This document shows, piece after piece, positions 1 through 33,357 of a stretch of DNA of 33,357 nt (positions within the stretch are counted from its first letter, which is position 1; each line of letters begins with the position of its first letter). Source of the stretch: a virus; IMG/VR virus record IMGVR_UViG_3300022562_002031, positions 1 to 33,357 of that record; one strand, written 5' to 3'. The translations under genes and the position numbers were made by a program. The notes under the pieces were generated by a model that made no database searches, had not been told where the DNA came from, and saw nothing but the letters and a program-made list of their open reading frames with translations.

Positions 1-113
1 GCGAGCGCTGTGCACATGAGCTGCGCGGTCTCGGTCGGCATCTTCACCACGTGCCGATCGCAATGCAACCGCGCGGCCGCGCGCGCGTCGAGGTCGAGCA
101 CGAAGATGTTCAC
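1..113 (-). CDS. Phage protein of the MNIFVLD...HCDKHVVKM family, N-terminal part only
   Basis: The gene starts with GTG at 113, overlapping the upstream stop (GTGA), and runs off the left edge, so only about 37 codons are visible. They read VNIFVLDLDARAAARLHCD followed by RHVVKMPTETAQLMCTAL. This N-terminus is typical of a widespread phage family, sometimes annotated as pyrimidine-dimer glycosylase-like, which begins MNIFVLD and has a CDKHVVKM motif. That identification is from memory of the family. No function can be confirmed because the rest of the gene is missing. It is the last visible member of the coupled leftward operon. Confidence 0.7.
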   Translation of the reverse strand, partial: MNIFVLDLDARAAARLHCDRHVVKMPTETAQLMCTAL

Positions 114-874
114 TCGCGCTCCTCGGTCTCATCATCGAAGTGGTCGTCGCTGAACAGCCGGCGCAGCGGGCACTCGCTTGCACGGGCGCATGTCCTGGCG
201 GTGTGCTCGACCTCATCTCCGCCGATCGCACCGCAGTGCTCGCACCAATCGTACTCGCCGGTGTCGCTCCGGGCGAGGTCGTCGTGCCCGTTCGGGACGT
301 CGAGCCGGATGTCGTGCTCGTCCATCCACCGCGAGAACACGAGCACCACCGCTTTGGCCTGAGCGATGCTCAGAGGCTCCGCGTCGAAGTGCTCGCCGTG
401 ACTGTCGCGTCCGCGCATGACCTCGTAGGCGTGGATCATCTGCTCGTGATAGTGCTCGGCGCTCCAACGCCAGAACGGCACTTCGATCGACAGCGTGAGC
501 AACGGCCAGAACTCGGCGGCTTGCTCAACGGTGATCGTCTCGATCTCGCCTTCGAGCTTCCGGTCGGATCGGAACTGCTCCCACATCGCGTCGAGAAAAG
601 TCCGATGCGCCTCGGCAATCTCGTGCGCGTGGTCGTCGGTGAGCATGCCGACGTCGTCATCTCGGGCGGGCACGCGGCTCAGCCTGCTCGACGGCACGCC
701 TCGCGTGTTGAGTTTGCGCTCGATGGTGAGTGACCAGTCGCGCGGATCATCGCCGAGATCAAAGAGCTTGGTCAGCATCTCGCGATGGCTCGCGATCTTG
801 GCGAGCGCACCTGCCTTGACTTGGATGGGCTTTAGGAGCCCATCGGTGAACATCAGCCTTGTTTCGACGGACAT
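110..874 (-). CDS. Unknown phage protein with C-terminal Cys cluster
   Basis: A 254-residue acidic protein, not recognised. The start is placed at ATG 874 (MSVETRLMFTDG); sequence upstream in this frame looks like a shadow of the neighbouring gene. An alternative start is ATG 946, which would overlap the previous gene. The body is rich in Trp, His and Glu (WPLLTLSIEVPFWRWSAEHYHEQ). Near the end is CEHCGAIGGDEVEHTARTC followed by another Cys, a likely zinc-binding motif. The stop overlaps the next GTG start by GTGA, so the two are probably translated together. Confidence 0.65.
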   Translation of the reverse strand: MSVETRLMFTDGLLKPIQVKAGALAKIASHREMLTKLFDLGDDPRDWSLTIERKLNTRGVPSSRLSRVPARDDDVGMLTDDHAHEIAEAHRTFLDAMWEQFRSDRKLEGEIETITVEQAAEFWPLLTLSIEVPFWRWSAEHYHEQMIHAYEVMRGRDSHGEHFDAEPLSIAQAKAVVLVFSRWMDEHDIRLDVPNGHDDLARSDTGEYDWCEHCGAIGGDEVEHTARTCARASECPLRRLFSDDHFDDETEERE

Positions 875-920
875 GACGCTTCGACCGCAACGTGAGTCCG
901 TGCATTCCCGCAAGCGATGC

Positions 921-1190
921 TCACTCGTGCTCCTCGGTCCCATCATCGATGGGTCCCTGCCTTGCTCGCTCGCGCCGGCTCGTAGCGAGCGCCGCGCTGA
1001 GGTCATGGATCGCCAGTGCGAGGTCGCGCTCGTCGACGTCTCCAAGTCGACCAATTGTGTGCACGCGACCGCGACGCAGCGCAACGAATGTCATGCCAAT
1101 GATGTCGCCATTTTCAGCTTGCGCGAGCAGCTGTCGAAGATTTGCGACGACTTCCTCGTTGGACTTTCGTTGCAGCTTGGTAACGGTCAT
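921..1190 (-). CDS. Small unknown phage protein (89 aa)
   Basis: It begins at ATG 1190, overlapping the TGA of the upstream small membrane protein by ATGA. The sequence includes LRQLLAQAENGDIIGMTFVA, then a basic RRGRVHTIG stretch and a conserved-looking helix ending in LSAALA. Small phage proteins with an n-GxIxGxxFV-type strand are common but have no assigned role. No catalytic motif is visible. The tail is charged (GTEEHE). Coupled translation with its neighbour suggests it is expressed. Confidence 0.65.
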   Translation of the reverse strand: MTVTKLQRKSNEEVVANLRQLLAQAENGDIIGMTFVALRRGRVHTIGRLGDVDERDLALAIHDLSAALATSRRERARQGPIDDGTEEHE

Positions 1191-5609: not shown

Positions 5610-6455
5610 TCAGCAGTCGTCGATCGGATGCGTGGTCACGAGGTCGATCCGCCACTCCTTGCTCGGGGTCGCTACGAGTTCGATCCTGCGCCGCTCGCTC
5701 TCGTACCAAGCCAGGGTCACGAGGTCACCATCGGCGGTCACCTCCCAGGTCAGGATGAGGTCGCTACTCAGAGCGGCGTGCAGGCCCTTGTACGCTTCGA
5801 CGATGCGCGCGAGCACCGAGTTGAACTGCTTCACCGGGTGCTCGGCCAGGGCATCGCCGCTGTGTCGATAGCAGCGGCGGAACAGCTCGACGGGCTCGGG
5901 CTCGCCGAAGCCGTGGCGCTCAAGCATCTCGACGAAGCAATCCACCACGTCGAAGGAATGGACGGGGAGGTATTCGCCGAGCGTGCGGCGCTCGTTCCTG
6001 AGCGTCGGGTTGAGCTTGATGACCGGCTTGTCCTGGTCGTTCACGGTGAGCATGATCGCGTCCTCGGTGGAATCGTCGGCCAGCAGCTTGCCAAGGTCCG
6101 CGAGGTCGTCGTCGGTGACGGCATACCAGCGGTAGGTCGCGTCGTCGCGATACACCGTCAGGCCCAACTCGGCGAGATGCGCGGCCCGGTCCTCGTCGTC
6201 GAGCATCTCGATTTCTTCGATCTCGCTCTCACCGAGGGGCCGAAGCAGCCGGCCAACCCACGGCGCGGTGAGTCGACCGCGATCCCACCGCATGTACACG
6301 TGGGTGAAGCCGTCGGTGGTGGGCGCTTCGAGCCGGTACCACCCGCTGGCGCGCACGATGTTCTCCTGCGCGAGGTCGAGTTTGTCCGTGTGCTCGGCGG
6401 CGCGGGTCTGGGCGAGATGGTCGAGGACGATGGTCGGGGTCGGTTGGCTGGTCAT
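5610..6455 (-). CDS. Unknown phage protein (281 aa), MTSQ leader
   Basis: The start is ATG 6455 (MTSQPTPTIVLDHLAQTRAA) with GGAG 8 bases upstream. Its first four codons are identical to those of two neighbouring genes (starts at 6804 and 7157). The protein is acidic, with aromatic strands (FTHVYMRWDRGRLTAPWVGR, ATYRWYAVTDDDLADLGKLL) and a C-terminal beta segment. No recognised domain. Its leader contains an 11-bp tandem repeat (see separate entry). A role in phage-host takeover is possible but not shown. Confidence 0.65.
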   Translation of the reverse strand: MTSQPTPTIVLDHLAQTRAAEHTDKLDLAQENIVRASGWYRLEAPTTDGFTHVYMRWDRGRLTAPWVGRLLRPLGESEIEEIEMLDDEDRAAHLAELGLTVYRDDATYRWYAVTDDDLADLGKLLADDSTEDAIMLTVNDQDKPVIKLNPTLRNERRTLGEYLPVHSFDVVDCFVEMLERHGFGEPEPVELFRRCYRHSGDALAEHPVKQFNSVLARIVEAYKGLHAALSSDLILTWEVTADGDLVTLAWYESERRRIELVATPSKEWRIDLVTTHPIDDC

Positions 6456-6468
6456 GTCGTGGTCTCCG

Positions 6469-6512
6469 TTGTGGTGAGGTTGTGGTGAGGTTGTGGTGAG
6501 GTCGTGGTGATG
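6469..6512. repeat. 11-bp tandem repeat in leader of the 281-aa gene
   Basis: Three perfect copies of TTGTGGTGAGG (plus strand; CCTCACCACAA on the transcribed strand) at 6469-6501 are followed by a fourth degenerate copy to 6512. They fill most of the 64-base gap between two minus-strand genes and lie just upstream of the GGAG of the 281-residue gene. The period is close to one helical turn, so they could be protein-binding sites or an unstructured translation enhancer. Confidence 0.7.
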
Positions 6513-6519
6513 GTGAGGG

Positions 6520-6804
6520 CTACTCGTCGTCCGAATCGTCCATGGCTGCCGCGGACTCGATGGTCGAACGAACGATGGCCATCGCGGCATCCTCGTCGGC
6601 GATAGCCATGACGTCGTCACGCTCGGCATCGGTGTGCCCGCCGCCGCCGTATCGGTCCTCCCACTGGTCCGCGGTCGTGACGGGCTCCTCGCGACCGAGC
6701 AGGATGTCGCACGCGTGGGTGACGACGAAGTCACCGGCCGAAGCGGCCTCGGTGCGGAGCGAGCGAATCTGGGCGGAGGGGATGGTAGAGGCTTGGCTGG
6801 TCAT
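6520..6804 (-). CDS. Small acidic phage protein (94 aa), MTSQ leader
   Basis: It starts at ATG 6804 (MTSQASTIPSAQIRSLRTEA), preceded by AAGGAACACGAAA. The C-terminal half is strongly acidic (ERDDVMAIADEDAAMAIV, ending MDDSDDE). A His/Gly turn RYGGGGHTDAE is visible. No family was recognised. The acidic tail and small size would fit a DNA-mimic or inhibitor protein, but that is speculation from composition only. Confidence 0.65.
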   Translation of the reverse strand: MTSQASTIPSAQIRSLRTEAASAGDFVVTHACDILLGREEPVTTADQWEDRYGGGGHTDAERDDVMAIADEDAAMAIVRSTIESAAAMDDSDDE

Positions 6805-6848
6805 TTTCGTGTTCCTTGAAGGGTCGGGCGGAGGGCGGAGGGCGATGG

Positions 6849-7157
6849 TCATGCGTCGTCGTCGTCGTCGTACACATGCTCGAGCGGGTTCGCTGCGAGC
6901 CTGGCTCCGATGCGCGAGTAGCTCGCCAGGCAGATGCGCTCGCCGACTTCGAGGGCATCGCTCGTCTCGATGACGTCGAGGTCGAAGCCCATCCGGCACC
7001 CCTGCGACTGCACCTCGCCCCACGCCTGGGCCTCGGACGCGAACTCCCGCTCGACAGTCGCCCGGGCGCCGGGCTTGCACCGCTGATGGTCGAGCACTCC
7101 GGTCAGGTCAGACACGAGGTAAAAACGGGGCTTGGTCGTGGTCGCTTGGCTGGTCAT
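6849..7157 (-). CDS. Small phage protein with Asp-rich tail (102 aa), MTSQ leader
   Basis: The start is ATG 7157 (MTSQATTTKPRFYLVSDLTG). A good promoter lies 22-50 bases upstream, and this start lies only about 15 bases from the expected transcription start. The sequence has a beta-rich core (RFYLVSDLTGVLDHQRCKPG; GFDLDVIETSDALEVGERIC) and ends in a run of five Asp residues. It was not recognised. It is probably the first gene of a leftward transcript comprising the MTSQ genes. Confidence 0.65.
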   Translation of the reverse strand: MTSQATTTKPRFYLVSDLTGVLDHQRCKPGARATVEREFASEAQAWGEVQSQGCRMGFDLDVIETSDALEVGERICLASYSRIGARLAANPLEHVYDDDDDA

Positions 7158-7178
7158 GGGGTTCGTCCGGTCACCAAA

Positions 7179-7207
7179 GATATAGTGCGGCCAGCACTGG
7201 CGCGCAA
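7179..7207 (-). promoter_or_regulatory. Sigma70-type promoter for the MTSQ gene cluster
   Basis: On the minus strand, TTGCGC (7207-7202) and TATATC (7184-7179) are separated by exactly 17 bases, in an otherwise GC-rich gap after the Aat-like gene. The spacer contains the near-palindrome GCCAG-TG-CTGGC, a possible operator. The transcription start is expected near 7172, just before ATG 7157. Confidence 0.5.
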
Positions 7208-7216
7208 GTCCTGGAC

Positions 7217-7912
7217 TCACTTTTGTTGCGATCCGAGCCTAATCCACCGTCCTGGACCAACCCCGAGGTCTGGTCCGAGTAGCTCGAGCAGCTGCTCGCG
7301 GGGAATCCAGTCGCCGCCGAGCCGACCCAGGTGCCGGGTGCCAAACCCGCAGTCGATGACCTCGGTCCCGCGCTCGCGCAGTTCCTCGGCCATGACGGCC
7401 AGCGCGAGGCTCGAGGAGCAACGCTCGATCGAGAACATCGAGACCCCGTAGAACACGGCGCCCGACACCACCCCGAACAGCCCGCCCACCAGCCGGTCGC
7501 CGACCCACGCCTCCGCGCTGTGAGCGACACCGAGCCGGTGCAGCTCGCGAAAGACCCGGATCTGCGTCGAGCACAGCCACGTCCCGGGATCCAGCGGCGC
7601 GTGCGGGACCGCGCACCCATGAACCACCGCGTCGTAGGCCACGTCGATCGTGATCCTGTAGGGCCTGCGCCTGGCCAGCTTCCGCAGCGTGCGGCCAAGC
7701 CTGACGCCGGGCGAGACGGGGATCACGAACCGAGGGTCCGGAGACCACCAGGCCCCGAGCCCGCTCTGCGTCCCGTATGGCGTGTACAGGAAGGCACCGC
7801 GCCCGTAGGCGTGTAGTGCCTGCGCGGCCGTGATGCCCTCGGTCACCGCGACGAGATCGACGTCGAGGAACGACGAGTCCGGGATCATCTCGTCTCGACC
7901 GACGGCGATCAT
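7217..7912 (-). CDS. Leucyl/phenylalanyl-tRNA-protein transferase (Aat) homologue, variant active site
   Basis: This 231-residue protein aligns along its length with Aat, the GNAT-fold enzyme that moves Leu or Phe from aminoacyl-tRNA onto N-terminal Arg/Lys of proteins, marking them for ClpS/ClpAP. Family signatures are WWSPDPR (55-61), a GTW motif (110-112), AHSAEAW, LVGGLFGV, SMFS and a final IDC...HL.RLG block. Against E. coli Aat, W111 and D186 are kept, but E156 (GESMF) is Val (GVSMF), Q188 (DCQ) is Gly (DCG) and W49 is Tyr. Start ATG 7912 overlaps the upstream stop by ATGA. Family membership is secure; normal activity is doubtful. It may have a different acceptor or chemistry. Confidence 0.85.
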   Translation of the reverse strand: MIAVGRDEMIPDSSFLDVDLVAVTEGITAAQALHAYGRGAFLYTPYGTQSGLGAWWSPDPRFVIPVSPGVRLGRTLRKLARRRPYRITIDVAYDAVVHGCAVPHAPLDPGTWLCSTQIRVFRELHRLGVAHSAEAWVGDRLVGGLFGVVSGAVFYGVSMFSIERCSSSLALAVMAEELRERGTEVIDCGFGTRHLGRLGGDWIPREQLLELLGPDLGVGPGRWIRLGSQQK

Positions 7913-8175
7913 GTCTCGCACCCGAACAGCTCCTGCTGCCCCGGTTCGGTATCCTCTGGCCCTTGCGCGTCGAGGATGAGCACGAGCAGAGCCAGGCGCT
8001 CGGCCTCGCAGGGCCTGCACGCCGGCCCGAGTGCGCCGCGGCGGAAACCTTCGGCCAGGCCACCGCACTCAGAGCAGACGGTCCCCTCGGGCGCGGAAGC
8101 GAGGTGGATGCGGGCGACCTCGCAGACCGAGCAGCCTGGACACTTGCGCTCAAGACAATCCCGGATGAGCGGCAT
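7909..8175 (-). CDS. Cys-rich zinc-ribbon-like protein (88 aa)
   Basis: It starts at ATG 8175, sharing a base with the methyltransferase stop (TGATG), and ends overlapping the Aat-like start. It has four C-x2-C-type pairs: CPGCSVC, CSEC and CRPC, enough for two zinc sites. The middle CSECGGLAEGFRRGALGPAC resembles a DksA/TraR-like or generic zinc ribbon. No enzymatic motif. Tight coupling to the methyltransferase on one side and the Aat homologue on the other suggests the three act or are expressed together. Confidence 0.65.
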   Translation of the reverse strand: MPLIRDCLERKCPGCSVCEVARIHLASAPEGTVCSECGGLAEGFRRGALGPACRPCEAERLALLVLILDAQGPEDTEPGQQELFGCET

Positions 8176-8957
8176 CACTCGGGCTTGTCGAGCCGCACCA
8201 TAACGGTGCTGACGTCGGTTCCAGATTCCTTGAAAGCTCCGGCCTCGACTTCGATGACCTTCCCGCCGAGCAGCTCAACAAACTCTCGGAAGCGCTTGCG
8301 CTTTCCTCGGGTGCTGGTCCGCCACCCCATCGACATGATCGTAGCGAGGCGCCCTCCCGGCCGCACGAACTCCCAGGCGTGCATCACGTGTTCGATATCC
8401 TGATCCTTCGTGAACGGTGGATTCATCAGGACCACGTCGTAGGTCGGGTCGACGGGCATGTCCAAAAAGTCGGCGTTGATGAAGTCGTCGCGCGTCTCTC
8501 GGCCTCGGCCCCAGTCCATGCGTGCCGAGGTCATGGCCTCCCGATCGATGTCGATCGCGGTCATGTACACGCCGGGCTGATGACGGATGATGGCGCCGAC
8601 GATCGACCCGTCACCGCAGGACGGCTCGAGCACGCAATCGCCATCTTCCAGCGGCCCGATCAGCGCCACAAGGCGATCAGCGATCGCGCACGGCGTGTAG
8701 AAGGCTTGCAGCGTGTTCTTTACGTGCACCACTTTGCCTGTCTCGGCGGCCAATCCGAGAGCCTCGCGCGGGTCCCTGGCGAACAGGTGCGCCTTCGCGG
8801 AGCGGTTCCACTTCCCGCCCGCGGCGACGAGCGCCTTGTTTATCCGTTCGTAGAGCTTGCGATCGAGCTGCTCCGGTGGGAGTACGACACGGTCGGAACT
8901 GATGCTTGAGCGTGCGAGAACATCTCGCACGTCGCTGTCGATGGTGATGGTCTTCAT
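8175..8957 (-). CDS. DNA N6-adenine-type methyltransferase
   Basis: A 260-residue class I SAM-dependent methyltransferase. It shows QAFYTP (motif X, about 85-90), VLEPSCGDGSIVGAI (SAM-binding motif I, about 109-123), TAIDIDRE (motif II) and VVLMNPPF (catalytic motif IV, 175-182). The NPPF form indicates amino-methylation, most likely N6-adenine. The start is ATG 8957 (MKTITIDSDVRDVLARSS); codons upstream look like a shadow. The N-terminal 80 residues precede the catalytic fold and could bind DNA. In phages such enzymes usually protect DNA from restriction. No restriction enzyme is adjacent. Confidence 0.85.
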   Translation of the reverse strand: MKTITIDSDVRDVLARSSISSDRVVLPPEQLDRKLYERINKALVAAGGKWNRSAKAHLFARDPREALGLAAETGKVVHVKNTLQAFYTPCAIADRLVALIGPLEDGDCVLEPSCGDGSIVGAIIRHQPGVYMTAIDIDREAMTSARMDWGRGRETRDDFINADFLDMPVDPTYDVVLMNPPFTKDQDIEHVMHAWEFVRPGGRLATIMSMGWRTSTRGKRKRFREFVELLGGKVIEVEAGAFKESGTDVSTVMVRLDKPE

Positions 8958-9018
8958 GTGGCCGACCAACCGCGAGCGCCGGATTTCATTCCAGACGCTC
9001 GCGGTCTGATCCCGACGG

Positions 9019-9393
9019 TCAGCTCGCGATCTTCGGCTCGGACGCGATCGACAGCACCGGGATCGCGGGGGCGGTCTCGGTCGCATTCGTGGCGCGGAGC
9101 AGCTTCCGGAGCCAGCGCTGCGCCGACTTGATGACCGGGCTCGCCGTCGGTGCAATCAGCACCGAGCTCGCGTGACCGGCCGAACGGCAGAGCACGCTCC
9201 TGTCACCGACCACGACACGGAGCTCTCCAGCCCCGGAGATCTCCAGCATCTTGATCGCCGCTTCGGCCAGCGGCTCGAGGCTCTCGTCGCCGGCCGAACC
9301 GAGACCGTCTTGGGTCGAGCGTTCGCTGCCGCGTACGCAGACGAAAAGAGCTCCGTGAGACACGATTTTGTCAGGGGTCACCTTGGTTTGCAT
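9019..9393 (-). CDS. Unknown phage protein (124 aa)
   Basis: It starts at ATG 9393 (MQTKVTPDKIVSHGALFVCV). There is a beta-rich stretch GELRVVVGDRSVLCRSAGHA and a C-terminal basic segment (SAQRWLRKLLRATNATE). No family was recognised. It lies 7 bases after the DUF2493-DUF4326 gene, suggesting co-transcription. Confidence 0.6.
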   Translation of the reverse strand: MQTKVTPDKIVSHGALFVCVRGSERSTQDGLGSAGDESLEPLAEAAIKMLEISGAGELRVVVGDRSVLCRSAGHASSVLIAPTASPVIKSAQRWLRKLLRATNATETAPAIPVLSIASEPKIAS

Positions 9394-9400
9394 GCCAGCA

Positions 9401-10168
9401 CTACCGCCTACCGCGCTCCTGATTCCACGCTTGGCCCACGAATTTTCGCCACGCCTCGATCACGATCTGCACGTGGCAGTGCGCCGGCCAGCATGAGCAG
9501 ACCGCGTAGTGCTCGGGCGTGAGCTCCCGGAGGTAGCGGAGCACAGCCGGATCAGTCTCGAGCCGCTCCCAGAGCCAGGCTCGATAGCGTGCGAGCACAG
9601 GCACGGCCGCGTCCGCTCTCGACTGCCCGGGCTCTCGCTTGAGGTCCCGCCAAGGATTCCCCACCGGCGTCCCCTCGCCACAGTAGATCGCGGGGCCGGG
9701 CGGCTTGCCGTGGTGCCGATTCCAGACCCGCGGCTCGGCGACCGGCCACACGTGATGAACAGCGATCCCGGCCTCGTAGCCGGCGACGCGGCAGTCGAGG
9801 GTCCCGACGCCGCCCTCGAACGCGACCACCGTCGACGCCGGGATAGCGACGAACTCGCCCGGGCGCCGGCCCGAGATCATCGCTCGGTTGCGCAGCGGGC
9901 CGGCGGCTCGTCCGTGCGTGCGCCAGTCAGCCGGCCATGGCTCGACGGCCCACCCGCGCGCGCGGAGGTAGCCGGCGACGAGCGTGTCCGTCGAGCCCAC
10001 CAGTTCGCCGCGCTTGTTCTTGCGCGCCGGGCAGGCGCCATGTCTGATCCGCTCAGCGCCGAAGTCGACGAGCTGCTGCTCGAGTTGCTCGAGCTCAGCC
10101 AGCGTGGGCGTCCGGTCCCGACCGCCCGTGATCACCACGATCGGCCGGGTGCTTCGGTCGTCGTGCAT
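9401..10168 (-). CDS. DUF2493 (SLOG-like) - DUF4326 fusion protein
   Basis: This 255-residue protein appears to join two phage domains. The N-terminal half resembles DUF2493/YspA, a Rossmann-type SLOG relative: VVITGGRDRT (11-20), HGACP (43-47), a VEPWPADW strand, AGPLRNR (89-95) and FEGGVGTLD (117-125). The C-terminal half resembles DUF4326: IYCGEGTPVGNPWR (161-173), a helical spacer, then CSCWPAHCHVQIV (224-236). SLOG proteins bind nucleotides or nucleotide-derived ligands; DUF4326 has no established function. The pairing may couple ligand sensing to an enzymatic or metal-binding module; that is inference. Confidence 0.75.
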   Translation of the reverse strand: MHDDRSTRPIVVITGGRDRTPTLAELEQLEQQLVDFGAERIRHGACPARKNKRGELVGSTDTLVAGYLRARGWAVEPWPADWRTHGRAAGPLRNRAMISGRRPGEFVAIPASTVVAFEGGVGTLDCRVAGYEAGIAVHHVWPVAEPRVWNRHHGKPPGPAIYCGEGTPVGNPWRDLKREPGQSRADAAVPVLARYRAWLWERLETDPAVLRYLRELTPEHYAVCSCWPAHCHVQIVIEAWRKFVGQAWNQERGRR

Positions 10169-29575: not shown

Positions 29576-30667
29576 TCAGACCGTCCAGAGCGTACCGCCG
29601 TCGACGAAGCACACGGCCCGCGGGTCTCGCATCTGCACGCCGTAGAAGAGGGTCCAGATCTCGATCTCGATGACCCATTGGTTGCCGGAAACCTCGACCG
29701 GCGGCTGGACCTGGGCGAACACGGGGCAGGTCACCTGGATTGCGTCGGCCTCGGGAGCGAGCAGAATGGCGCCCGGGTGACCGAACGTGTCGGCCGAGCG
29801 CAGGCTGTCATCCATCATGATCTCGTGCCCGCGGTTGTTGTTCTCGATGAACGTCTTGAGCGTCGTGTCGGTACCGCCAGGGTTGAAGAGCTCATCGGAG
29901 AAGTGCTCGTCGACGCTCAGCGGGACCAGGGTCTTGGTCGGTTTGATTGCGCGCTCGCGGCTCGTCGCGTCCGTGTACATGAGCCGCTTGGCCTGCGTCC
30001 ACTCGTCGTAGATGACGTCGGCGTTGGCGGTCGCCCAGTCGATGGTCGAGACGACCCGCTTGATCCCCGGGTAGTTCGTGATCCCGAGCTTCCCTGCCGC
30101 CGGGATGCCGCGCAGGACAGCCTCGTTGAAGTCGAGCATGTGCTGCTCTCGGAGCACGTCGCCCTTGTCGCGCATCGAGTTGTATCCGGCCATGGCGTCC
30201 TCGGCCATTTCGTGGAAGCCGAGCAGGATCTTGTGCGAGATCTTGCCCTTCTCGGCCGAATGCAGCTTCTTGGCGACCTCGATCGCGCGCTCCGGGCTCT
30301 GGTCGAGCGCCGTCAGGCCGTAGTTTTGCGAGGGGTTGCGGACCGCCGTCTCGCCCCACTCGATCCGCTTGGCGCCGAGACCAACACCACCGTCGGTGAT
30401 TCGGATGATCTCGCCGTTGGCCCACGGCGTCTCCGCTGCCTGCCGTCGGTAGAAGCCCTCGAGAATGGCCGTCGTCGCGCACTTGGACAGCGAGGCGATC
30501 TGGCCGGCGTCCATGTTCATGGCGCGCGCCTGCGGGGTGTCGCCCCACTTTTTCGCGGCGAGCATCGCCACCCCGTCGAGAATCGGGGTGAAGGTCTCGG
30601 GGCCGTGCAGGTTCGCAGGGTTCCGGAAGTCGTAGTTGGGGGTCCGCTTGGGCTTGTCGAAGGGCAT
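29576..30667 (-). CDS. Major capsid protein (DUF2184-type, HK97 fold expected)
   Basis: A 363-residue protein starting at ATG 30667 with the leader ACAGGATCAGAACG. It matches the DUF2184 major capsid type: PNYDFRNPANLHGPETFTPI at the N-terminus, LGFHEMAEDAMAGYNSM in the middle and a C-terminal strand set. That set (WVIEIEIWTLFYGVQMRDPR) is followed by AVCFVDG. In this family the C-terminus carries a GvqvR.P.A...ldG end. It directly follows the protease and decoration protein genes, the usual order. Confidence 0.8.
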   Translation of the reverse strand: MPFDKPKRTPNYDFRNPANLHGPETFTPILDGVAMLAAKKWGDTPQARAMNMDAGQIASLSKCATTAILEGFYRRQAAETPWANGEIIRITDGGVGLGAKRIEWGETAVRNPSQNYGLTALDQSPERAIEVAKKLHSAEKGKISHKILLGFHEMAEDAMAGYNSMRDKGDVLREQHMLDFNEAVLRGIPAAGKLGITNYPGIKRVVSTIDWATANADVIYDEWTQAKRLMYTDATSRERAIKPTKTLVPLSVDEHFSDELFNPGGTDTTLKTFIENNNRGHEIMMDDSLRSADTFGHPGAILLAPEADAIQVTCPVFAQVQPPVEVSGNQWVIEIEIWTLFYGVQMRDPRAVCFVDGGTLWTV

Positions 30668-31582: not shown

Positions 31583-33357
31583 TTAGTTTCCGCCGTGGAA
31601 GCCCGCGGTGTTGATCGTGGGCGGAGACGCCGGTGGGCGATGGTCGATGGACTTGGAGCGTCCAGCGGCCAACCGCTTGGTGGAGTTGTAGAGCGACGCC
31701 ACGAACGCGTCGAACGTTGGCGGCGGCTCCTCGTCGGTCCCGCGGGCACTGTCGAGGTCGACCTTGGCCGCTGCGTCGAGGTCGAGAATCGCGGCGACGC
31801 GCATGGCGGTCATCGAGTCTGGGCGGCTCCCGACCGCCCACGCCGACACGAGTTGTGGGCACAGCGGAGCGATCTCCCGCTCGAGATCCTGCATCGCGCG
31901 GGCGGCCGCGTCGGCCTCGAGCTTGTCGACCGTGCGCCGGAGCCCGGCGAGCTCGCCGTTGGTGGCCGCGAGATCGGTCGCCATCTTGTTCGCGTCGCCG
32001 TGGAGCTTGCGCTCGCGCTCGCGCAGCTTGGCGGCGACATCCTTGCTGACAAGCACCGCGACGCCATCCATCTCCATCATCTCGCCGCCGCTCAGGTGCT
32101 GCTTGACCATCTCGGGATCGAGCTCGAGCGCGACGGCGATCGCCTGCATCGCAGAGTCCGCGGCCTCGGGGCTCTCGGCGTAGGCGTACGCCTTGATGGC
32201 GTCGAGCAACGCCGCCGCGGCGGCAGGGTCCATCTGGTCGTTCTTCGGCTTGGTCATGTCGTTGTCCTTGCTGGCTTCAAAAACAAAAGCGCCGTCGATC
32301 AGCACGCGAGCCTTGGGCCCTGCCCGAGCTTCATCGACGAGAGATTCGTGGTTGACCTCGATGTCGGTCTGCCGAAACGTGTACTGGACACCCTGCGCGT
32401 CGACGCCAGGATCCCGCACAGCGATCGTGGTGTAGCCCGTCGAGAGCTGCACCTTGCCGTCCCGCATTTTGCGGATCACGGCGATGTCGCCGACGCAGAT
32501 CTTGACCTTGACGTAGCGCAGGCCGTGCTCGTCGGCCGGCAGAAGCTCGGCGCCGGTGCCCAGCATGCCCCTGGCGTACTCGCGCCAGTTGTCGGCCGTC
32601 ACCAAGACGGGGGGATGGTCATCGGTGAACGTCGCGAAGTCGAAGCTCGGAAGGCTCTTCTCGACTTCGTCCTCGCTCCGGTACTCGTACCAGGTGCTTT
32701 TGCCGTCGCCGTAGAGCTGCGAGCCCGTGCGCGCGGCGTAGCCCGTTACGATCAGCCGGCCGTCGCTCGTGACCTTGTCGGCGAAGCCGTCCTCTCGCAG
32801 ACGCTCCGCGATCGCGTTGACCTGCGCGGCGTCGGTCTTCGGGCCGAGCTCGTCAGCGATCGCTAGAGCGCGGTCGACTGCGACGCGGTCCTCGGCACCG
32901 AGCGCGAAATCCATCGTGCAGGTGCGGTAGACCCGTTCACCTGCGTCGGCGTGCGTGCTCGCCATCGAGGTCAGCAGCGCCAGCGCACCGGCGATCGCTT
33001 TGTCGGTCCAGCCTCGGGCTGCACGCTTGACCGGCGGCAAGGTCGAGATTCCGCGCAGGGTCTGCGTGAAGCTATCGGCGGTCGGGGATTTGTCGGCGTC
33101 GGCGCTCTCGTGATCGGCGCGCAGTTTCTCGAGCATGCCATCGAGCTTGGCCTTGGCTTCGGCTCGAACCGCGTCGCTCAGATCCTCGGTCTGCGGCAGC
33201 CTGGCCAACGCGTTGCGGATCGCGTTGCCGATGCCGACCAGCTCGCCGCTCTCGACGTAGGCGATCGGCAGCTTGAAGCTCGCGCGGGTGATCTCCTCGC
33301 CAGCGGGCGGATTCAAGTCGGCGACGACGAACCCCTTGGCCGCCTTGGCCCAGTCGA
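31583..33357 (-). CDS. Head maturation protease/scaffold (DUF2213), 5' end missing
   Basis: The frame is open to the right edge (codons read DWAKAAKGFVVADLN before the first internal TTG), so the true start lies outside; at least 590 codons. The N-terminal part includes TRASFKLPIAYVESGELVGI. DUF2213 features follow: RLIVTGYAARTGSQLYGDGK, then LPSFDFATFTDDHPPVLVTA, YVKVKICVGDIAVIRKMRDG with KVQLSTGYTT, and IEVNHESLVDEARAGPKARV. The C-terminal part has an acidic helical, coiled-coil region (RERERKLHGDANKMATDLAA), scaffold-like. A protease-scaffold fusion is common next to the capsid gene. Confidence 0.75.
   Translation of the reverse strand, partial: DWAKAAKGFVVADLNPPAGEEITRASFKLPIAYVESGELVGIGNAIRNALARLPQTEDLSDAVRAEAKAKLDGMLEKLRADHESADADKSPTADSFTQTLRGISTLPPVKRAARGWTDKAIAGALALLTSMASTHADAGERVYRTCTMDFALGAEDRVAVDRALAIADELGPKTDAAQVNAIAERLREDGFADKVTSDGRLIVTGYAARTGSQLYGDGKSTWYEYRSEDEVEKSLPSFDFATFTDDHPPVLVTADNWREYARGMLGTGAELLPADEHGLRYVKVKICVGDIAVIRKMRDGKVQLSTGYTTIAVRDPGVDAQGVQYTFRQTDIEVNHESLVDEARAGPKARVLIDGAFVFEASKDNDMTKPKNDQMDPAAAAALLDAIKAYAYAESPEAADSAMQAIAVALELDPEMVKQHLSGGEMMEMDGVAVLVSKDVAAKLRERERKLHGDANKMATDLAATNGELAGLRRTVDKLEADAAARAMQDLEREIAPLCPQLVSAWAVGSRPDSMTAMRVAAILDLDAAAKVDLDSARGTDEEPPPTFDAFVASLYNSTKRLAAGRSKSIDHRPPASPPTINTAGFHGGN

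Follow-up and report, generated by a model that had tools for sequence, protein, structure and literature searches.

Aat, the Leu/Phe-tRNA–protein transferase, marks proteins for degradation by attaching an amino acid that it takes from a tRNA; ClpS is the adaptor that reads N-degrons. In E. coli Aat, two residues, E156 and Q188, are considered the anchors of the Arg or Lys side chain of the acceptor and the determinants of acceptor specificity (PMC4964394, a review citing crystal structures, in which this role rests on a modelled ternary complex). The mechanism has been called substrate-assisted and ribosome-like (PMC4810233, a Fahlman-group review that cites Fung 2011, a study entitled 'substrate binding and orientation'). 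Very few natural targets of this bacterial N-degron tagging enzyme have been validated (PMC4810233). That specificity can change within the Aat family is documented for an Aat-like protein of a eukaryote, Plasmodium falciparum, which is an arginyl-transferase, i.e. its donor has been switched to Arg-tRNA (PMC6135404). On the phage side, ClpS is known from jumbo phages, where a role in delivering proteins to host ClpAP has been proposed for it (PMC7824862, in the text of which the term 'aminoacyl-tRNA' is absent), and our literature search found no paper describing a phage-encoded Aat.

Here we analyse an Aat-like gene on a 33,357-base virus record from IMG/VR, a fragment with linear ends, the whole of which is referred to as the window.

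7217..7912, minus strand: aat-like gene (PF03588), 231 amino acids, with E156V and Q188G in E. coli numbering (profile match, alignment, model)

The gene is an intact ORF with an ATG start and a TGA stop. Its product matches the whole Pfam domain PF03588 (positions 4–170 of 171; E=1.3e-46, 158.6 bits with the cut-off at 22.7), and its top PDB sequence match is E. coli Aat (2z3k, E=2.4e-36), with which it has in common its length and the motifs WWSPDPR, GTW, HS-E-W, LVGG-G, SMF and DC. With the NCBIfam equivalog profile TIGR00667, however, it reaches 140.1 bits, slightly below the cut-off of 143.55. Because of this score and the loss of two otherwise invariant residues, the protein does not merit the name of an Aat equivalog, but it is a member of the PF03588 family. 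No PHROGs family was matched, and the BFVD viral structures contained no Aat, yielding distant GNAT- or FemAB-like matches only. An AlphaFold2 model (pLDDT 88, pTM 0.86) has E. coli Aat structures as its closest PDB entries throughout (2dps/2cxa, Z about 26.6; best Z 26.7; rmsd about 2.2 over 215 residues). The next-best, non-Aat matches are FemX-type enzymes, i.e. aminoacyl-tRNA-dependent peptide synthases (6snr, 9wqw), which likewise use aminoacyl-tRNA on a GNAT-like fold, but have different acceptors and resemble the model far less (Z about 13, at best 13.2). As judged from this model, the window protein thus has the Aat fold, and the strong family match claimed in the initial annotation, which had also proposed the structural comparison, is borne out by profile score, alignment and predicted fold alike.

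Unlike its E. coli counterpart, the gene is carried by a phage and lies in an operon with a methyltransferase gene. The features that define this setting are the following:

7909..8178, minus strand: small ORF for an 89-amino-acid, Cys-rich protein, likely start ATG 8175, directly upstream of the aat-like gene
8175..9155, minus strand: N6-type DNA methyltransferase-like gene, likely starting at an internal ATG, with a 53% identical homologue in a related phage locus (L096)
9401..10168, minus strand: DUF4326 protein, a flanking phage marker with homologues in three related phage loci (69%, 54% and 42%)
110..1084, minus strand: hypothetical gene, the phage marker on the other flank, with a 61% identical homologue in the same related phage (L096)
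25715..27145, minus strand: tail sheath gene, which defines the phage group, 79–89% identical in nine other IMG/VR contigs
29576..30667, minus strand: major head protein
31583..33316, minus strand: head maturation protease

The start of the aat-like gene overlaps the stop of the 89-amino-acid ORF as ATGA, which confirms the coupling to phage genes on one side that had been noted before, and the start of this small ORF, which has no Pfam match, in turn overlaps the stop of the methyltransferase gene as TGATG. For the methyltransferase there is an additional, more distant match (31%) in related phages. The DUF4326 protein also shows a weak SLOG-like (YAcAr) match below cut-off and is conserved at 42–69% while the region around it varies. 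Between 14.5 and 33.3 kb, the structural DNA can be aligned to the nine contigs of this phage group at about 72–84%. A search for the host by tail sheath in 379 Myxococcota genomes gave a distant 33% match only. By codon position, the GC content of the aat-like gene is 0.69/0.51/0.86, resembling that of its neighbours. Since both flanks carry genes common to related phage contigs of 81–97 kb, an origin from host chromosome, which had been named as a possible refutation, is excluded as far as synteny allows: the aat-like gene is phage-borne. No PF03588-like protein was found in three long relatives (95, 98 and 81 kb), which marks the gene as accessory and its region as variable.

The central observation concerns the residues that differ from E. 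coli Aat, which were located by alignment to 2z3k:

7442..7444, minus strand: codon GTC for V157, corresponding to E. coli E156
7346..7348, minus strand: codon GGG for G189, corresponding to E. coli Q188
7352..7354, minus strand: codon for D187, corresponding to E. coli D186 and kept
7577..7579, minus strand: codon for W112, corresponding to E. coli W111 and kept
7409..7411, minus strand: codon for S168, corresponding to E. coli K167 of the [D/N]ASK motif, which here reads CSSS

Val and Gly in place of E156 and Q188, with W111 and D186 retained, had already been read from the sequence, and the alignment agrees in every one of these positions; the role then given to E156 and Q188, i.e. catalysis, does not hold up as plainly, since the role cited for them is anchoring of the acceptor. 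An alignment artefact was ruled out by intact flanking motifs on both sides, and a single base-call error is rejected as well, because each of the two codons is at least two nucleotide differences away from any Glu or Gln codon. Further unusual residues are K167S, N164C and W49Y, the K167 column having Lys or Arg in 199 of 203 bacterial sequences; to go by these positions, tRNA binding may also be affected. The donor pocket, by comparison, stays within the range of the family. Its positions M144, F153, L170, F173 and I185, taken from the literature, together with F177, added here, correspond to L/F/L/M/L/I in the window protein (in the order M144/F153/L170/F173/F177/I185); all are hydrophobic, and each residue also occurs at the same position in bacterial members.

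How unusual the two substitutions are becomes apparent from 203 bacterial sequences retrieved by genome scans from several phyla (about 196 distinct, as seven genes were fetched twice). This set is biased towards query-like sequences except for Acidobacteriota and Verrucomicrobiota, where almost every copy detected was included (30 of 33 and 30 of 36 genomes with a match, respectively). W111, E156, S157, D186 and Q188 are invariant throughout (203/203) and M158 is found in 200; the window protein keeps W111, S157, M158 and D186. Among the 24 columns conserved to at least 98.5% in these sequences, it retains 20 and breaks four, with F95Y and Y145F being mild and E156V and Q188G radical, i.e. 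both radical changes hit one functional pair. A bacterial homologue with substitutions at E156 and Q188, which could have spoken against the proposal, did not appear among the 203 sequences. The branch of the window protein is very long (1.9–2.7 compared with a median of 0.4–0.5), and it has no close relative.

Phage copies of Aat were suspected to be rare from the outset, and scans of 2.9 million IMG/VR contigs by peptide patterns (a non-exhaustive approach) and of 50,697 phage records bear this out. The former produced three further contigs with Aat, L002 (497 kb), L133 (60 kb) and L136 (619 kb), and the latter, doubtful Acinetobacter records aside, four Xanthomonas and Erwinia jumbo phages (PhiXhv-12/15/16 and Ep032), of whose Aat the peptide patterns used found no relatives in IMG/VR. 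The doubtful records, 'Acinetobacter phage MD-2021a' CAKLQH020000030.1 and CAKLQF020000028.1, were set aside as they appear to be bacterial chromosome; these MD-2021a records carry trxB, ftsK, aat, an arginyl-transferase gene and an Ef-Tu fragment.

L133:5977-6648 and L136:5962-6633 (IMG/VR contigs of 60 kb and 619 kb): megaphage Aat with E156C, Q188 kept
L004:4776-5609 (Xanthomonas phage PhiXhv-15 and relatives): jumbo-phage Aat-like gene without the WWSPDPR motif

While the L002 copy is canonical at E156 and Q188, the L133 and L136 copies share with the window protein the replacement of E156, but have Cys at this position, keep Q188 and K167 and are 37–40% identical to it. The megaphage copies, at 162.8, 192.4 and 197.5 bits, also lie above the TIGR00667 cut-off, whereas the jumbo-phage copy (83.3 bits) falls below. 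In the jumbo phages, both 156 and 188 are changed, as in the window, and D186 and W111 are kept, but the changes are to acidic residues rather than losses (E156D/Q188E) and identity to the window protein is 28%. D186 is present in every phage copy. The L136 protein differs from the bacterial consensus in just one of the 24 near-invariant columns, namely E156, and it is 79% identical to that of L133, with dN 0.157, dS 1.15 and a dN/dS of about 0.14; this low ratio indicates that the Cys156 form is under purifying selection. Besides Aat, the L133 contig encodes a virion structural protein and an endolysin and, at L133:1631-4123, what by eye is an RtcB-like RNA ligase gene, seemingly containing an intein; in the jumbo phages, about 3 kb separate the Aat-like gene from one annotated as a type IV pilus subunit.

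Taken by types, E156 is changed in three of four phage forms versus none of the 203 bacterial sequences (Fisher p about 3e-6, a value to be read with caution as the sequences are related), and three different residues at 156, i.e. Val, Cys and Asp, require at least three substitutions. The phylogeny against Aat that the initial annotation had suggested was computed, but placement is weak: the window protein pairs with L002 at 75/97 and on a long branch, and the topology test (p-AU 0.36) decides neither for nor against a single clade of the four non-jumbo phage copies (window, L002, L133 and L136), so that E156 may have been lost once or several times independently.

A link to proteolysis comes from one of these contigs, the one with the L136 copy.

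L232:1480-1812, minus strand: ClpS gene of the 619-kb phage contig that carries the L136 (E156C) Aat

This ClpS, identified with E=6e-30 and found neither in the window nor in its three long relatives, has Val at the gatekeeper position (NDDFTPVEWV), which we take to correspond to M40 in E. coli, and its gene adjoins one that by eye resembles a KptA/Tpt1-type RNA 2'-phosphotransferase. Matches to ClpS occur in 30 phage records, two doubtful Acinetobacter ones being left out. In the window, itself a fragment, and in its relatives, ClpS, ClpP and Clp-type AAA_2 domains gave no match above cut-off, with one sub-threshold AAA_2 match in a relative (G009), and the window phage would therefore depend on the host for these components.

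What, then, could such a protein do? Another mechanism, another acceptor or a role without transfer had all been considered initially, and of these we favour another acceptor, because the protein retains D186 and the donor pocket but has lost the residues said to anchor Arg and Lys, and because other phage Aats are changed at 156 as well. Read from the sequence, the window protein may be an Aat-fold transferase in which the donor half has been kept and the acceptor pocket rebuilt, a reading to which we give a little less than even confidence.

A somewhat unlikely alternative, which nevertheless has to be weighed, is ordinary Aat activity at a reduced rate or with relaxed specificity, by which the phage would supply extra Leu/Phe tagging of Arg and Lys N-termini, the substitutions being tolerated since the enzyme would act chiefly by binding and orienting its substrates. 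D186 and Q188 mutants in the 2011 study by Fung reportedly still form product slowly. The substrate-assisted mechanism described in review (PMC4810233) would also suit this alternative, as would the canonical copy on the 497-kb contig, according to which a phage can profit from ordinary Aat. The invariance of E156 and Q188 in all 203 bacterial sequences, divergent ones included, nevertheless argues against a loss free of cost, as does the fact that both radical changes fall on precisely this pair. More doubtful still is a non-catalytic decoy that, instead of transferring, would bind charged Leu/Phe-tRNA, ClpS or host Aat substrates and thereby sequester components of the host N-degron pathway or block it. 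W111 and a hydrophobic donor pocket combined with loss of the residues said to hold the acceptor would fit such a decoy, but D186, which a decoy could do without, is conserved here and in all other phage copies, and K167S and W49Y hint at tRNA contacts that are changed rather than preserved. It is very improbable that the donor was altered instead of the acceptor, e.g. towards another aminoacyl-tRNA, for even though the P. falciparum homologue (PMC6135404) demonstrates that the fold can switch substrates, every donor pocket position is hydrophobic and within the family range. Just as improbable is a decaying or misassembled gene without function, where the long branch, the absence from three long relatives and the score below the TIGR00667 cut-off are outweighed by an intact ORF in an overlapping operon, a codon composition of the coding type, similar to that of adjacent genes, the retention of 20 of the 24 near-invariant positions, two key changes that each take two or more nucleotide differences and a fold predicted with high confidence.

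If the acceptor pocket has indeed been rebuilt, as we prefer to think rather than assume plain inactivation, since E156 and Q188 are lost with D186 and the donor pocket kept, the phage protein would still bind charged tRNA and hold the amino acid in the usual hydrophobic donor pocket, facing an acceptor pocket that would be without the grip of E156 and Q188 on an N-terminal Arg or Lys side chain. Leu, Phe or a similar residue would then most likely be attached to other N-termini, i.e. those whose first residue is uncharged or hydrophobic. In the infected cell, host or phage proteins other than the targets of host Aat might in this way be sent to host ClpS–ClpAP, with redirection of host N-degron proteolysis as the probable benefit to the phage.

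On a larger scale, phages could perhaps represent a pool of Aats whose acceptor pocket has repeatedly been rebuilt towards new targets, at 156 (Val, Cys, Asp) and sometimes at 188, with some phages adding a ClpS of their own, i.e. carrying both tagger and reader, and re-aiming host proteolysis; we put this forward tentatively and regard it as possible rather than probable. The choice of Arg and Lys is put down to two residues that are the same in every bacterial copy looked at here, and it is precisely on these that nature has experimented in the phage copies, one being under purifying selection and one located on a contig with ClpS. With such copies acceptor choice can be tested directly; they could also be turned into tools for labelling protein N-termini with new specificity and would reveal a phage route to redirecting host proteolysis.

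On the downstream side of the aat-like gene, a GTGA overlap is doubtful, an internal ATG (7157) being the likelier start of the next gene. In this part of the window (5610-7220, minus strand), three consecutive small genes seemingly begin with the same MTSQ leader (ATGACCAGCCAA-like), which is perhaps a translation-start element common to these genes or the mark of a duplicated family.
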